NCBI RefSeq assembly: GCF_037996645.1
Contig: NZ_JBBMXV010000006.1
Span: 62,001 to 126,000 of the forward strand
Direction: 5' to 3'
From: Halalkalicoccus tibetensis
Lineage (GTDB): Archaea; Halobacteriota; Halobacteria; Halobacteriales; Halalkalicoccaceae
Length of the DNA stretch: 64,000 nucleotides
Under the pieces are notes generated by a model. That model was not told the origin of the DNA. It searched no databases and saw only the letters and a program-made list of their open reading frames with translations. A program made the translations under genes and the position numbers. Positions 4,886 through 52,552 of this stretch are shown here, one piece after another. Within the stretch, counting starts at the first letter, position 1, and each line of letters begins with the position of its first letter.

Positions 4886-5428
4886 ATCGAACACATCCGC
4901 GATGCCTGCCCCTCTGAATCGTTCGTGACCTACCTCCAAGATCGGAATGAGACACTCATCGTTCTCCTTGCAAACACTGGGCTCCGCGTCAGTGAACTCG
5001 TCGCGCTCAACTGGGAATATCTCGACCTGAATGCCGACCCCGGCGAGCTCTACTTGCCGAGTAAGATCCAGAAAGGCCATCCTATCTCGATCTCGCTGAT
5101 GAAACCCGCCGACAGCTTCGCCGGTATCGGAACCGCGTCTTGGAACAAGAGTAAAGCGTTATTCCCATCACGCCAGTCTGACCGTATGACCGACCGATCT
5201 ATTCGCAATACCGTTACACGAGTTGCAAAAGAGGCTGGTGTTTGTTCCTATTGGATCGAAGGAGGACGCGACAAGTCACACGAGATGTCGCCCCATACAT
5301 TCCGTTATTCAATCGTGTTTCAGATGATCCGACGCGAAAACAAGCGTCTCGAAGATGTGATGCTGCGACTTCGGCACGCGAATTTACAGACGACTGACGA
5401 GGTCTATGGACACTTCCGCCCACGCTAG
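4886..5428 (+). pseudogene. Tyrosine recombinase, N-terminally truncated
   Basis: The catalytic domain of a phage-type integrase: TGLRVSELVALN (first catalytic Arg), SPHTFRYS (His-x-x-Arg box), LRHANLQTTDEVYGHF (third motif and Tyr nucleophile). In frame it runs back only to about 4886 (IEHIRDACPSESF), where a TAA closes it. The SAM-like N-terminal DNA-binding domain, normally 80-100 residues, is missing. Remnant of an integrated element; no clear att repeats seen. Confidence 0.75.
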
Positions 5429-9600: not shown

Positions 9601-10448
9601 AACGGGTCATGGAGCTTCTTATCCGGGTATTCGCCCTCGAACAGTTCATCATGCAAGAGGGTGGTGGGATCGGAGACGCGTTTCGGAACTGGATGAACGC
9701 TCAATTCACGCCGGTCTTGGTCGACGAAGGAATCTACACCATGAACGATCTGTAGCCAGGAAGCTACGATTCCGATCGACCTCGACTAAGAGCTTGAAAC
9801 AGTTGACGTCGTTGACGATGCCGAACATGGAACGGCTGTAGGTAACGCCTTTTTCATAGGTGGTGCGCAAGATACGCGCTCTGTATTCAGCACCACTTCT
9901 GAAACCTGTCACAGTCTGAGGATTCCAACAGGGCCACTACTTCCTCTCAGTCGTCTTCAGGACTCATCGGTGCACTTTCCGTCCCCGCGTCGGAGCGACT
10001 CGCACTACCAGTGAACTACCTCGGCCTCGGTGTCTCTACCACCGAGAACAATTCTGCGGCAACCCAGCCTGCTGAGACACCACTCGAACAGATCTGCACG
10101 CGCTCGGGCATAGTTGCTGATCGTGAACTCACGACCACCCAGGAACATGCGCGATTCATCGCATAACGTTATGGGATGATCAGTTAGATAGTGCCTTCTG
10201 CAATATCGACTCTTTCCCGACAGGATATGGTTGCACAAGGTTCCCACTTCCAGCGACCTGAGAATCTATTGATTCCGAATCACCAAACTCATCGAAGAGT
10301 GTCTAATCCCAGAGACTCCCTTCGCAGGGCCATAATGTCGTCTCTTTCTCAAATTTGACTGAGTGATCTATCCATTTCTTGCATGATAATTATAACTTGT
10401 AACCCATGAATCGAAAAGCTCACAACCAGAATCACCTCCTCTCAACTA
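9601..10448. other. Gap with gene scraps
   Basis: About 850 bp. A short plus-strand frame near 9650-9755 (MQEGGGIGDAFRNWM...) may be the tail of a lost gene. One CCTTGTGCAAC-type repeat lies at 10194-10240. Nothing else recognised. Confidence 0.35.
10194..10240. repeat. CCTTGTGCAAC inverted-arm repeat, copy 2 (degenerate left arm)
   Basis: The right arm GTTGCACAAGG (10230-10240) is perfect; the left arm CCTTCTGCAAT (10194-10204) has two mismatches. The 25 bp between them are unrelated to the other copies. Confidence 0.5.
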
Positions 10449-21798: not shown

Positions 21799-22018
21799 GG
21801 TACGTCTGAAACCGTTATGATGTAGTTCATTTTCCCGGAAGAGTAGCAAGACTCGCCTTCAACCCCACAAGGGTACGTCTGAAACTGAGGAGTGTCCGAC
21901 GCCTGGGGGTGATGAAGTGTCCTTCAACCCCCCAAGGGTACGTCTGAAACCTTCGGACTGACATCCCGCTGAACATCGGACTCCCCTCCCTTCAACCCCC
22001 CAAGGGTACGTCTGAAAC
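21799..22018 (-). CRISPR. Orphan CRISPR array: three full repeats and one truncated repeat
   Basis: Full 30-bp repeats lie at 21856-21885, 21921-21950 and 21989-22018; the first differs from the other two at one base. A 14-bp half repeat (GGTACGTCTGAAAC) lies at 21799-21812. Spacers are 43, 35 and 38 bp and unrelated. In minus orientation the repeat begins GTTTCAGACG and ends GGTTGAAGG, the known haloarchaeal type I-B repeat type. The truncated repeat is then the leader-distal end, and the leader would lie at about 22019-22200, which is AT-rich. No cas genes are in the window. Spacers match nothing else I can see here. Confidence 0.88.
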
Positions 22019-32660: not shown

Positions 32661-32925
32661 GTGACAACCTCCGAACTTGCTGCCGATGAAAGAGGACCCC
32701 GGGACCACTACCCAGACAGCCTGTTCGCGGTGCCCGACTTACCCTCTATATTCAGCACGCTGCTCTTGACAGAAATTCGGCATATTTCTGACCGGCGCGT
32801 TATCTGTTTCCTCTGTCTGGAGTGATCGGGACTATCTTCATTTCCCGGCTAGAATGACCTGTTACGTAGCGGTGCGCATCTTACAAAATGATTTTGTGGA
32901 GAGATGATCGATCTATTTTCGTATA

Positions 32926-36205: not shown

Positions 36206-36680
36206 ATGTCGCGAAATACTTCTTCGAATTCCTGGGGCGACTCGGATACTCTCCTTCGCGAACGATGTCTCATTCATTATTGGGTTGTCGGTCTAGAAGA
36301 TGCTCCAGTAGTCGTCCTGACCCACGGCGCGTCGATGGACCACCGGATGTTCGACGACCAGCTCGATCCGCTTCCCAATGCTGGCTATCGCGTACTAACA
36401 TGGGACGTTCGGGGGCACGGCCTCTCAAAACCGATTGGGACGCAATTCAGCGTTCCAGGCGTTGTCGAGGATCTAGTAGCCATTCTTGATCAACTTGAGA
36501 TCGATCAAGTAACTCTTATTGGGCAATCCTTTGGCGGCTACGTCTCACAAGAGCTTCTGTTTCGACACCCAGAGCGGGTGACTGCGCTCGGAATCATTGG
36601 TGCGACCGATATAACCAGCGTTCCACCGCTACTGGAACGTCTGGCACTCAAGTTCTCTCCCTATCTCTTTAGGATCTGGC
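36206..36680 (+). pseudogene. Alpha/beta hydrolase, 5' half (gene interrupted by transposon)
   Basis: ATG 36206 to the insertion point. It holds the first half of an alpha/beta hydrolase: VVVLTHGASMDHRMFDDQL (oxyanion loop), YRVLTWDVRGHGLSKP, and the nucleophile elbow LIGQSFGGYVSQ (G-x-S-x-G, Ser catalytic). The reading frame is cut after ...YLFRIW by the mobile element at 36681; a chance stop follows at 36691. Removing the element and one target copy restores a continuous frame into 39236-39597. Confidence 0.9.
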
Positions 36681-36909
36681 GGCCTTGTTGAAACCCTCAA
36701 GCGCTGATAGGTTTCAGTAGCCGTGCTGAATACACAGCGTATATCGGTCACTGATCTTTGAGCAACCCGTATGGAGACGAATCGGTAGGGACTAGTGAGA
36801 CTCCAGTTGTGAAGTGCTAAATCTTCGTGTTACTGTGTCTATCGGTTGTAGCCAACAGTTCAGCAGCGAAACGGCACTATTTTTTCGCGTGCGAACCGAG
36901 CACACGCAC

Positions 36910-38169
36910 GTGGCAGAATTACTAATTCTCGTGGGATTGCTGGTGGCGGTGTTCGTCGGGTACAATATCGGCGGGTCATCAACCGGTGTTGCCTTCGGTC
37001 CGGCAGTTGGCAGCCGGGCCGTCAGAAAAGTCACTGCCGGGGCACTGTTTACCGTGTTTGCGTTCCTCGGAGCGTGGACGATTGGGCGGAAGGTCATCAC
37101 GACGATGAGTAACGAAATCGTCGATGCAGCAGCCTTTACACCCGAAACGAGCGTTGGTGTCCTCTTTTTTACCGGGCTCGCACTCCTGATCTCGAACCTC
37201 TACGGTGTCCCGGCGTCAACCTCGATGACAGCCGTCGCAGCAATCGTCGGACTCGGATTGGCAACGGGGACGCTCAACACTGCACTGATGTTTACCATCC
37301 TGTCGGCATGGATCGTCGCCCCACTGATCGCCGTCTTCATAGGTGCGTTTATCGGCAGATATCTGTACCCGCACCTTGACGCCAAATTCGAATTTGGTCG
37401 CCTTACGAACCCGTTGATCGCAATCGATACCCAGGGGAGGCTCCCACGGCTATCGGTCAACGATAACGTCTCGCCTCGGGATCTGATCGGGTCGGCGCTT
37501 GTGGTGGCAATTGCCTGCTACATGGGGTTCAGTGCCGGGGCCTCGAACGCGGCGAACGCAGTCGCCCCGCTTGTCGGTAACGGTTCCCTTGACCCCAGCC
37601 CGGCGATTCTCCTCGCAATCGGGGCCATCAGCGTGGGCGGCTTCACGATTGCCCGGCGGACACTGGCGACCGTTGGCAACGATATTACTGAGATGCCGAT
37701 TCTGGCAGCGCTCATTGTTTCAACCGTGGGTGCGACGATTATCAGCGTCCTATCGTGGCTCGGAATTCCAGCCAGTCTCGCCGTGAGTACGACCAGTTGT
37801 ATTATTGGACTCGGGTGGGGCCGTGCAAGCCGAGCGCGGACGCTCGCAGACATAGTCACACAGTCCCCTGCCGATGAATCCGCTCCAAAGTTTACGACTG
37901 GTGCACTCAAACTTCACCCAGTTGAAGGCAACAAGGGGGTCAATTCGGGCCCAACTGTGGGCGAACTCGCTGAAGGCGAGACTCCTCACCCGGACAGGCA
38001 GCACGCATCCGGGGATGGTGTGTCTAGCATCGGCGAAAAAGACCCAGAGGAACTGTCCGCCGAAGGCCTGTTCCACCACGCAGCGGCAGCTCGCGTCGTG
38101 ACACTCTGGGTGATCACGCCGATGATGTCGCTCGTGGGGTCCTATGCCTTGTTTTCACTCCTCGGCTAA
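36910..38169 (+). CDS. PiT-family inorganic phosphate transporter
   Basis: A 419-aa protein from GTG 36910 (VAELLILVGLLVAVFVGYNIGGSSTGVAFGPAVGS). It has the duplicated PiT signature: GGSSTGVAFGPAVGSRAVRK in the first half and GFSAGASNAANAVAPLVGNGSL in the second, each followed by helices, with GVPASTSMT and GIPASLAVSTTSCIIGLGWG as the paired inner motifs. Ten to twelve helices; a hydrophilic loop lies near residue 340. PiT proteins co-import phosphate with cations. Translation upstream of GTG lacks the family pattern. As passenger of the transposon it could move phosphate uptake between replicons. Confidence 0.88.
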   Translation: MAELLILVGLLVAVFVGYNIGGSSTGVAFGPAVGSRAVRKVTAGALFTVFAFLGAWTIGRKVITTMSNEIVDAAAFTPETSVGVLFFTGLALLISNLYGVPASTSMTAVAAIVGLGLATGTLNTALMFTILSAWIVAPLIAVFIGAFIGRYLYPHLDAKFEFGRLTNPLIAIDTQGRLPRLSVNDNVSPRDLIGSALVVAIACYMGFSAGASNAANAVAPLVGNGSLDPSPAILLAIGAISVGGFTIARRTLATVGNDITEMPILAALIVSTVGATIISVLSWLGIPASLAVSTTSCIIGLGWGRASRARTLADIVTQSPADESAPKFTTGALKLHPVEGNKGVNSGPTVGELAEGETPHPDRQHASGDGVSSIGEKDPEELSAEGLFHHAAAARVVTLWVITPMMSLVGSYALFSLLG

Positions 38170-38321
38170 GAGAACACCTCGTCTGTCCATCGGCCTCAGT
38201 CGTGGTCAGAGGCACCGCCCATCTACAAGAATCGTGCGCGAGTGGTAAGGGTTGGCGTCTTTGATATCAAGACCGCTGTGCTGACTTGATCCTCTGTATT
38301 CAGCAGTCCGTTCCTTTTGAA

Positions 38322-39176
38322 TCACGTACATTCGCTGTCCTCGTATGAAATAGCGAGGCTTCGCTCCAGATTGTGAACCACGCACTTGATGACGAGCTCG
38401 CGGAACTGCTTCCACCAACGGCGTGACCGCACAAAAGCCCCGAATTTCTGTTTAATTGCTGCATTGACTGTCTCGTTCATGTTCCGTCGATGGTAGAGAT
38501 CGCTGTCCAGCCGTGCATTCCACGCCTTGTGAAGTAGGGTAAACTCCCGGTGTTTGATGAGCGGACGAATATCGTGATTCTGGGCGAGCCGCCGGAGCTT
38601 CTGGTCGTCATATCCCTTGTCACCAGTCAATACTGAGATGGACGCTGCATTCCGTTTCACTACCTGTGGTGCAATCTGTGTATCGTGTTTTCGTGTCGTC
38701 GTTACGTGAATGTCAAGCACGGCGTTGGTCGCCGTATCGACCAATAGCGTCGTCTTCAACTGCTGGATGGTGAGGTTCGTACGCTTCGTGTAGTGGGCTG
38801 AGGTGTGGGCTCGTTCAAACCCGGACGCATCGATACCGGTGATACCGTTGACCGGCAAATCTGTGAGCGAGACGTTCAGGAGAACCCGCCAGACAGCCAT
38901 CTCCAAGCGGTCGAACGCCTTACAGAGCGTCGAGGGTGCGGGGATCGAACCGAGATTGAGGGCGTCACGAATGCGAGGCATCTCGATAAGTTCATCAACG
39001 AGATCTCGGTAGGTGGTCGTCTTCTTCACTTTCAGACAGAGCAGGACAACGTGCTGGCGGAGCGTGAACCGCTTCCGTGAATAGCGTGTCGAGAACCGAG
39101 CTACTGCGCGACGAGCCAACACCATCGCGCGTTCGGCGAACTGGAGAAGTTGAGACTTCGGGAGACCATCCATCAT
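38322..39176 (-). CDS. IS5-like DDE transposase
   Basis: A 284-aa transposase. Catalytic residues fall in GITGIDASGFERA (Asp), VLTGDKGYDDQK (Asp) and RNMNETVNAAIKQKFG (Glu), the D-D-E triad of the IS5-type haloarchaeal transposases. The N-terminal part (RHVVLLCLKVKKTTTYRDLVDELIEMPRIRDAL-like) is the helical DNA-binding region. It ends VHNLERSLAISYEDSECT. The frame is intact, so the transposon may still be active. A damaged relative lies at 51727-52500. Confidence 0.9.
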   Translation of the reverse strand: MMDGLPKSQLLQFAERAMVLARRAVARFSTRYSRKRFTLRQHVVLLCLKVKKTTTYRDLVDELIEMPRIRDALNLGSIPAPSTLCKAFDRLEMAVWRVLLNVSLTDLPVNGITGIDASGFERAHTSAHYTKRTNLTIQQLKTTLLVDTATNAVLDIHVTTTRKHDTQIAPQVVKRNAASISVLTGDKGYDDQKLRRLAQNHDIRPLIKHREFTLLHKAWNARLDSDLYHRRNMNETVNAAIKQKFGAFVRSRRWWKQFRELVIKCVVHNLERSLAISYEDSECT

Positions 39177-39235
39177 ACCTCACGCTACTCACTCGTTATG
39201 TTTCTCAACAAGGGTTTCAACAAGGCCGATCTGGC

Positions 39236-39597
39236 CGGACCGACATCTCCGCAAGGTCATCGCCGGCTACACCGCAGAGAGCGAAGACGTCAGAGAGTAC
39301 GCCAACAGGGCAAATCGCCAGCTTTCAAAATGGGAGTTCCTCACCGTCTGGAAAGGAGTCGCGAGCGCCCTTCACGACGAACCGGATTACCGGATTTCAA
39401 AGCCGCTACTACTCACGCACGGCGAGCGGGATAAGACGGGAACAATTGCACGGGACGCACCGTCATGGGCCGAGCGAGAGCCGAATTGTCAGTATGAAGT
39501 GATTCCGGACGCGGGCCACAATGCGAATCAGGACAACTCCGACCGGTTCAATCGAGTGTTCATGGACTTCCTCACGCGACACGTTTCACCAGATTAA
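39236..39597 (+). pseudogene. Alpha/beta hydrolase, 3' half
   Basis: Continues the frame broken at 36680: PDRHLRKVIAGYTAESEDVREYANRAN...WKGVASALHDEPDYRISKPLLLTHGERDKTG (Asp of the triad), then VIPDAGHNANQDNSDRFN (His of the triad) to TAA at 39595-39597. Together the halves encode a complete esterase-like hydrolase of about 278 residues. No internal stop has appeared, so the insertion is probably recent. Confidence 0.88.
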
Positions 39598-51554: not shown

Positions 51555-51726
51555 GTTATATATATTTTCTAATGAATATGGTCTATAGTGTTACAGACAG
51601 GTGATTGAGTAACCGGATTGATCCTGTGGGATTGTGTCAGAAGAAGATATTTTAGCGAAGTCGTTCGGTTGCCAAGAGCTGGTGTTGGATATATTCGTCC
51701 AACTGCTCGTGGACAAGCTGGTTTGA

Positions 51727-52552
51727 CTCGGAACTGCTTCCATCAGCGTCGTGAACGGACGAACGCACCGTATTTTCGCTTGAGTCGGGAGTCCACCGTT
51801 TTGCTCTGGCTCCGTTGGCCATAGGGGTCAGTCTCCAGCCGAGTGTTCCAGGCTTTCTGCAGTGCTGAGAACTCACGGTGTTTAATCAGCGGACGAATCG
51901 AATTTTCGCGGGCCATCGCCTGAATCTGCTGATCGTCATATCCCTTGTCTTCAAGAAGAACATCAATTTCAGCTGTGTTGCGGTTGATGAGTGACGGTGC
52001 GATCTGTGTCTCGTGCTTGCGGGTCGTTGTAATGTGAAGATTGAGGATAGCGTTCGCTCTGGTATCGACTAAGAGCGTGACTTTCAATTGCTGAATCGTC
52101 AGCTTTGCCGGTTTCGTGTAGTGCTTCGAGGCGTGAGTTCGGTCGAAGCCCGAAGCGTCGATCCCCACAACACCATTTGTCGGAAGCAGTGAAACAGAGA
52201 GATTGAGAAGTACCCGCCAGACGGCCATATCAAGCCTATCGAACGCCTTGCATAGCGTTGACGGCGCGGGGAGTTCGGTGAGGTTGATCGCACTCCGAAT
52301 ACGGGGCATCTCGATGAGTTCGTCGAGAAGTGTTCGATACGTTGTGTCCTTCCGAACTTTGAGACACAGGAGAACGATGTGCTGATGGAGCGTGTAGCGT
52401 TGTTTCGAGAACTTCGAGGAGTATCGAGCCACGGCCCGTTGCGCTAACTGAAATGCTTCTCGACAAATCGGAACAACCGAGACTTTGGGAGGGTCTGCAT
52501 CTACTCAAACTACCAACTGAATCTGTAACTCACTAAGGATTTCAACAAAGCC
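51727..52552 (-). mobile_element. Damaged IS5-like element, relative of the PiT-carrying transposon
   Basis: Transposase remnant from ATG 52500 (MQTLPKSRLFRFVE), with a frameshift near 52455, the main frame 51743-52432 (GIDASGFDRTHA, VLLEDKGYDDQQ, and a degenerate third motif), a Trp-to-stop change (GAFVRSRR-TGA-WKQFR) and loss of the C-terminal 30 residues. The outer end AAGGATTTCAACAAAGCC (52535-52552) is an inverted repeat closely related to that of the 36.7-kb transposon. The other end is missing. The catalytic Glu segment (QSKTVDSRLKRKYG) is altered. Confidence 0.85.

Follow-up and report, generated by a model that had tools for sequence, protein, structure and literature searches.

The 64-kb window of Halalkalicoccus tibetensis DNA considered here (64,000 nucleotides of contig NZ_JBBMXV010000006.1, the whole stretch that was analyzed) contains, at 36206–39597, a split hydrolase gene plus the transposon inserted in it, an element of the IS5 family (IS, insertion sequence) that carries a transporter gene as cargo. 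The transporter occupies what appears to be an exchangeable slot, edged by two short palindromic boxes that recur in many genomes of the Halobacteriales, and it is this slot that suggests a system of gene cassettes in haloarchaea. The interrupted gene and the principal parts of the element are the following.

36206..36680, plus strand: N-terminal half of the interrupted alpha/beta hydrolase, left target copy included (Abhydrolase_1, 7e-21; in-frame fusion; intact homologue)
36673..36680, no strand: left copy of the 8-bp target duplication, GATCTGGC (direct repeat)
36681..36697, plus strand: left terminal inverted repeat, GGCCTTGTTGAAACCCT (repeat comparison of the element ends)
36910..38169, plus strand, reading frame open from 36814: PiT/PHO4-family transporter, the cassette cargo (PF01384, 3.5e-44)
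38322..39176, minus strand: intact IS5-family DDE transposase, 284 amino acids (NF033579, 209 bits against a cut-off of 140; PF01609)
39211..39227, minus strand: right terminal inverted repeat (repeat comparison of the element ends)
39228..39235, no strand: right copy of the 8-bp target duplication, GATCTGGC (direct repeat)
39236..39597, plus strand: C-terminal half of the interrupted hydrolase (in-frame fusion; intact homologue)

The element spans 36681–39227 (2547 bp) between perfect 17-bp terminal inverted repeats (TIRs; 18 bp counting one flanking base), of which there is no further occurrence within the window. Its DDE transposase, TIRs and 8-bp duplication place it in the IS5 family and, with a non-transposition gene between IS ends that moves with them as a unit, it is by definition a transporter insertion sequence (tIS); it has one transposase and one pair of tips, not the two full IS copies around a cargo that define a composite transposon. 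Deleting the element and one target copy in silico leaves a stop-free alpha/beta-hydrolase reading frame of 278 amino acids, which matches an intact Haladaptatus halobius hydrolase in a single alignment spanning the junction (61.7% identity, residues 12–277). An earlier note on this DNA had described the IS5-like transposon with its intact transposase, the perfect 17-bp repeats and 8-bp duplication within 2547 bp and the in-frame fusion of the hydrolase halves, all of which were found, and the single alignment settles its reservation that the halves might be unrelated. The empty hydrolase sites that it proposed to seek in close strains did not appear: no intact hydrolase was found in 40 close relatives at E ≤ 1e-20, which makes an empty-site comparison in sister strains impossible, and it was Haladaptatus that gave the intact homologue.

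The transporter probably starts at 36910, the annotated start of a 98.5% identical copy. Its annotated homologues are named inorganic phosphate transporters and the PHO4 family includes sulfate permeases; its sole NCBIfam match is a sulfate permease, far under the cut-off, so that the substrate may be phosphate or sulfate. A search for carriage of the transporter by phages gave no match. The same element with the same cargo lies at a second place in a genome of the same genus (G040; L019/L147), where it is 98.5% identical over 1694 bp, is flanked by its own exact 8-bp duplication (GACCCATA) and has a 414-bp deletion inside the transposase gene. This copy answers the call of the earlier note for others with the same cargo and agrees with its view of the PiT gene as a transposon passenger; of its statement that the insertion moves phosphate uptake, the movement of the transporter stands, but phosphate is unproven.

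Comparison of 80 transposase relatives, plus 20 longer stretches, with ends paired by inverted repeat and 8-bp duplication, yielded 42 paired elements, 39 of them with an exact duplication. The 20 closest elements (transposase at least ~85% identical) range from 1535 to 6752 bp, and what lies between the left end and the transposase varies from element to element. Pfam matches in this cargo comprise GrpB, type IV pilins, MgtE, a periplasmic binding protein, flavin amine oxidase, multicopper oxidase, an SRPBCC domain, a PQQ propeller and DUF2391, with PHO4 recurring in an element of Halomicrobium urmianum. In most close elements, 43 bp separate the left tip from the start of TGCTGAATACASAG, whose inverted partner is placed 934–937 bp from the right tip, beside the stop codon of the transposase; related elements that keep these boxes span many haloarchaeal genera. 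The corresponding features of the window are listed here, with R1 denoting a sequence-only model of the full site described further on.

36698..36722, plus strand: subterminal stretch on the left, constant across IS relatives; its match to the right half of the full cassette site begins at ~36706
36723..36751, plus strand: R box, GTGCTGAATACACAGCGTATATCGGTCAC, with its centre GCGT (36737–36740) as the left edge of the cassette (R1 match 36705–36757, 28.7 bits; breakpoints)
38278..38306, plus strand: L box, GTGCTGACTTGATCCTCTGTATTCAGCAG, with its centre ATCCTC (38289–38294) as the right edge of the cassette and its right arm belonging to the IS (exact 14-mer, constant position, breakpoints)

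Hence, the end-like motif beside the transposase, which the earlier note had taken for a duplicated left end, is instead the partner box at 38278–38306 of an inverted pair. The idea that the PiT gene was caught between such a duplicated end and the transposase gives way as well, because in nearly every close relative the boxes enclose different cargo; for the same reason, the transporter most likely entered the element as a site-specific cassette. The PiT gene is indeed mostly absent from relatives of the transposase, which had been put forward as grounds for doubting the boundary of the element, but other genes stand in its place, indicating that the cargo is exchangeable and not that the boundary is wrong.

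It is worth considering whether the element simply gained one passenger by a single accident, such as a left-end duplication or an adjacent deletion, with no special mechanism. Passenger genes are carried by tISs of several IS families (PMC7986276), and distant relatives of the present transposase have cargo without boxes. Indeed, the element resembles IS5-family ISs and tISs in its NF033579 transposase, its TIRs, its passenger between the ends and its 8-bp duplications, but the passenger position is here an exchangeable slot edged by boxes, in which several cassettes are possible. Moreover, the slot between the two boxes is filled by different genes across the close clade. The PiT gene also turns up at a distance from IS tips, flanked by full sites and with identical edges, and some elements have up to five cassettes parted by full sites. 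These identical cassette edges in unrelated contexts disfavour a single accident, to which we give little credence.

Several related elements deserve mention in their own right. A sister IS5 clade (L079–L127; transposase 66–71% identical) has the ends GGCTCTGTTGAAATCCT and varied cargo (a TehB-like methyltransferase, CNNM plus MATE, an acetyltransferase), mostly without boxes. In another element (L049 6264–8644), the cargo is a second transposase, 38% identical, adjoining the opposite end. An element without a transposase (L181 6713–8758) has two IS tips, an exact 8-bp duplication (ATCTCCCT) and three cassettes. The window itself contains a second, degraded IS5-type transposase (51650–52550, minus strand; ~64% amino acid identity to that of the element) for which no paired end was found.

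The boxes occur far more often than a control motif: 112 occurrences against 4 for the reversed control in 1.58 Mb of the relatives' loci and, across the entire home genome, 9 against 0. Many of those outside the transposons form part of a longer unit, which aligns without gaps over 111 columns and whose information falls to ~0 outside columns 9–103. This full site of ~94 bp consists of an L box, a spacer of ~37–39 bp and an R box, each box being a palindrome of two 12-bp arms (GTGCnnnATACA) around 4–6 bp, with the centres CCTC in L and GCGC in R. In transposons it is divided: its right half lies at the left tip and its left half on the transposase side. At the survey threshold of E ≤ 1e-4, R1 matches 134 of 195 Halobacteriales genomes; in a phylum-wide sample, the site was found in 19 of 24 Halobacteriales genomes and in 0 of 124 others, and sites in arrays numbered 113 against 0 in shuffled DNA. 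Four viral contigs, all short, have the R-box pattern, with weak and partial matches to the site. Read as RNA, the site has no consensus fold and no Rfam match, and an attC-like single-strand fold is not significant (DNA folding z-scores −0.9 to +0.8); it is thus probably recombined as a duplex. No target-duplication-like equality was found at the site centre, and arm-to-arm covariation in sites or cassettes is weak or absent.

Partial sites and decayed elements were also noted in the home genome. An L box with spacer and no matching R box lies 4 kb upstream of the element (window 32726–32790, plus strand), and a lone IS tip with an R box (window 9865–9935, minus strand; L007) is a remnant of another cassette-bearing element. 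A second cassette element of this genome, without a transposase (L009 1501–2730; G000:C6 ~255572–256800), has a mechanosensitive-channel-like gene between a decayed tip with an R box on one side and an L box with a decayed tip on the other, and the order of decayed tip, R box, cargo and L box is repeated in another element (L008 147–1555; G000:C7).

Where full sites neighbour one another, they share the same orientation in 81 cases and are opposed in 2 (p ~1e-21). Their spacing is 0.2–3.8 kb (median ~0.8 kb), usually with one gene between them, such that the arrays consist of tandem cassettes with one recombination site each, as in integrons. The largest array comprises ~30 sites in ~40 kb of one genome (G148). 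The genes in arrays encode, as read from sequence features, lipoproteins, small membrane proteins, methyltransferases and regulators; the cassettes parted by six sites in Halorarius litoreus (L066) comprise a multi-gene one, an AzlCD-like pair and several small membrane proteins. Most arrays are without nearby IS tips or transposase. The transposons, for their part, hold one to five cassettes with full sites between them, five being found in the 6752-bp element of H. urmianum.

Recurrence of the same cassette in different surroundings locates its edges. The transporter cassette of the window is 98.5% identical to one on a plasmid of Natronosalvus rutilus, a member of a different family, where it lies between two full sites and its neighbours differ from those in the window. 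Across 11 copies of the PiT cassette in different neighbourhoods, the shared sequence starts exactly at the R-box centre GCGC (GCGT in the window), the arm to the left of that centre varies, and, in the copies readable there, the right end is the ATCCTC of the L-box centre. Other whole cassettes likewise recur in different arrays with the same edges (L165/L169, 91.5%; L139/L130, 92.8%). Two transposons also invite comparison: that of one genome (G096) and that of H. urmianum have three cassettes and the transposase in common (94% over 2.86 kb), but in the latter the third cassette is followed by two extra ones, PiT-UspA and DUF2391, before the transposase. Each transposon is flanked by its own 8-bp duplication.

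These data bear on two further explanations. In the first, cassettes would change places through ordinary homologous recombination in the highly recombinogenic, polyploid haloarchaeal cells, the ~94-bp sites being small dispersed repeats of a mobile or regulatory nature. Haloquadratum does have small mobile repeats with inverted ends (PMC3119063), and the palindromic form of the boxes is common among regulator-binding sites. Like those repeats and miniature inverted-repeat transposable elements, the present sites are short, have inverted repeats and contain no gene of their own, but they alternate with genes in one orientation and form the edges of cassettes. The uniform orientation in arrays (81 versus 2), breakpoints at the two box centres and not anywhere in the 94 bp, and a tyrosine recombinase bracketed by half-sites (below) make this explanation unlikely. 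In the second, cassette movement is the work of the IS5 transposase, which would bind the boxes as internal sites. The boxes do lie at fixed distances from the tips, and there are cassette elements bounded by tips without a transposase, one with an exact 8-bp duplication (L181). Most arrays, however, have no IS tips or transposase nearby, cassette junctions lack the target-duplication-like equality at the site centre, and the transposase clade of ~70% identity is mostly without boxes; we regard this explanation as very improbable.

A candidate for the enzyme is a short tyrosine recombinase of 241 amino acids (L180 11039–11761) that adjoins half-sites. Among its relatives from an order-wide search, with half-sites scored by R1, those of at least ~66% identity account for 24 loci; 21 of these have a half-site no more than 100 bp away, and 10 have one on either side, whereas distant relatives (49–60%) have half-sites in 0 of 6 (Fisher p = 1.4e-4). 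Loci with both halves always show the order L half, gene on the minus strand, R half, and the same arrangement occurs on plasmids of Natrinema sp. DC36, an array-bearing strain, and Salinirubellus salinus. Examples of the recombinase are WP_345778570.1 of the former and WP_260644206.1 of the latter. R68, K131, R191, W214 and Y223 are invariant in the alignment and H188 nearly so, corresponding to the catalytic R, K, HxxR, W and Y; the structure model has a XerA-like fold (mean pLDDT 78.5), with XerA (5hxy) as the nearest solved structure and IntI and the Tn1549 integrase as further matches. Genomes with the recombinase have a median of 7 sites and those without it 1.5 (p = 9e-5, phylogeny ignored and counts taken among the matches listed, at most 19 per genome); the median is 0 in genomes with only distant relatives. 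These observations point to the recombinase as the likely enzyme acting on the boxes. A CxCGYC motif, conserved and inserted in its catalytic domain (A3 residues 99–104, first sequence), is a possible metal site.

Other candidates were set aside. Generic tyrosine recombinases of PF00589, also seen near arrays, are present in every genome, and two other short or truncated types (L171, L169) have no consistent linkage to sites. A search for a gene common to many arrays gave only clusters of regulators, TnpB and other widespread families. The window has a short tyrosine-recombinase gene or fragment (4925–5428, plus strand) of a type unlike the site-linked one.

Taken together, we think it probable, with fairly good confidence, that an integron-like cassette system, unrelated to IntI and attC, loads genes onto IS5-type transposons. 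A cassette would run from an R-box centre to an L-box centre, and an empty carrier would have a single palindromic box, its two arms adjoining the left tip and the 3′ end of the transposase gene, respectively. A circular cassette with the outer arms Lo and Ro joined might recombine at the Ri-Li box of the carrier, and strand exchange by the tyrosine recombinase at the box centre would give the order Ri-Ro, gene, Lo-Li, as in the window; in arrays, neighbouring cassettes would be parted by Lo-Li, spacer and Ri-Ro. The IS5 element, moving by its own transposase and making 8-bp target duplications, could then take the loaded cassette to new places. For the window, the cassette would have been loaded elsewhere, and the transposon would have brought it along before interrupting the hydrolase gene. 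The sequences themselves show the anatomy of the transposon, the exchange of cargo at fixed boundaries, the site with its arrays, the cassette breakpoints at box centres and the linkage of the recombinase to half-sites; circular intermediates, the chemistry of recombination, the pairing of enzyme and site and any advantage for the host we infer. The broader proposition, that haloarchaea have their own integron-like means of gene capture, independent of IntI and attC, with duplex palindromic boxes, a dedicated short tyrosine recombinase encoded inside its own split site, cassettes mostly of one gene in arrays of dozens and IS5 carriage between genera, seems to us likely, if a little less so.

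Several points weigh against this interpretation. The direction of cassette genes is unbiased (37 versus 34), unlike in integrons, and the L box of the window taken alone is a weak R1 match (38274–38315, 14 bits). Three of the 24 loci (L200, L205, L228) had themselves suggested the link between recombinase and site, some half-site matches are weak (E-values ~0.01), and the correlation with site counts is blind to phylogeny. No recombinase of the site-linked family was found in the home genome at E ≤ 1e-10; the cassette may therefore be mobile there only with its transposon, and it was probably loaded elsewhere. An empty carrier (~1 kb, single box) was not found in the close clade, and the distant IS relatives (66–71% identity) carry cargo mostly without boxes, so that cargo gain is also possible without them. 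Finally, excision, circles and recombination are here deduced from sequence.

It is informative to set this proposed cassette system beside known ones. Like mobile integrons, it has cassettes in tandem, most of them with one gene, a site made up of two simple palindromic boxes and a tyrosine recombinase adjoining half-sites, with some arrays on transposons and some clusters without the enzyme. Unlike theirs, the haloarchaeal recombinase has 241 amino acids and is not IntI (20.9 bits with TIGR02249 against a cut-off of 265), the site differs in sequence and has no significant single-strand fold, and the cassette genes are not co-oriented. As for an attI-like platform, the recombinase gene sits between L and R half-sites. 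In operation the system resembles a mobile integron, yet it lacks the two defining parts that were tested, IntI and an attC-like fold. With the archaeal tyrosine recombinases of the XerA, SNJ2 and pR1SE families, the enzyme shares catalytic residues and fold, but its gene lies by cassettes inside its own split site and not in a tRNA-targeting virus or plasmid, and it has a short N-terminus and the conserved CxCGYC insert.

Haloarchaea are known for heavy gene exchange, and to our knowledge no integron-type cassette platform has been described from this group. A survey of archaeal integrons does not mention haloarchaea (PMC9668308), a review of archaeal mobile elements counts passenger-carrying composite transposons and integrons among the classes undetected in archaea (PMC6563490), and a single transposon passenger gene is mentioned in Halorubrum lacusprofundi (PMC10544981). 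We found no description of the present cassette system in the open-access papers searched, which is no proof of novelty. If the interpretation is correct, two thirds of the sampled Halobacteriales genomes carry sites of the system, which would account for clusters of accessory membrane-protein and lipoprotein genes in haloarchaeal genomes, represent an integron-like solution reached with different parts and offer a gene-stacking tool for archaeal genetics.

Elsewhere in the window, at 21856–22018 on the minus strand, there are three CRISPR direct repeats that match the Rfam family CRISPR-DR24.

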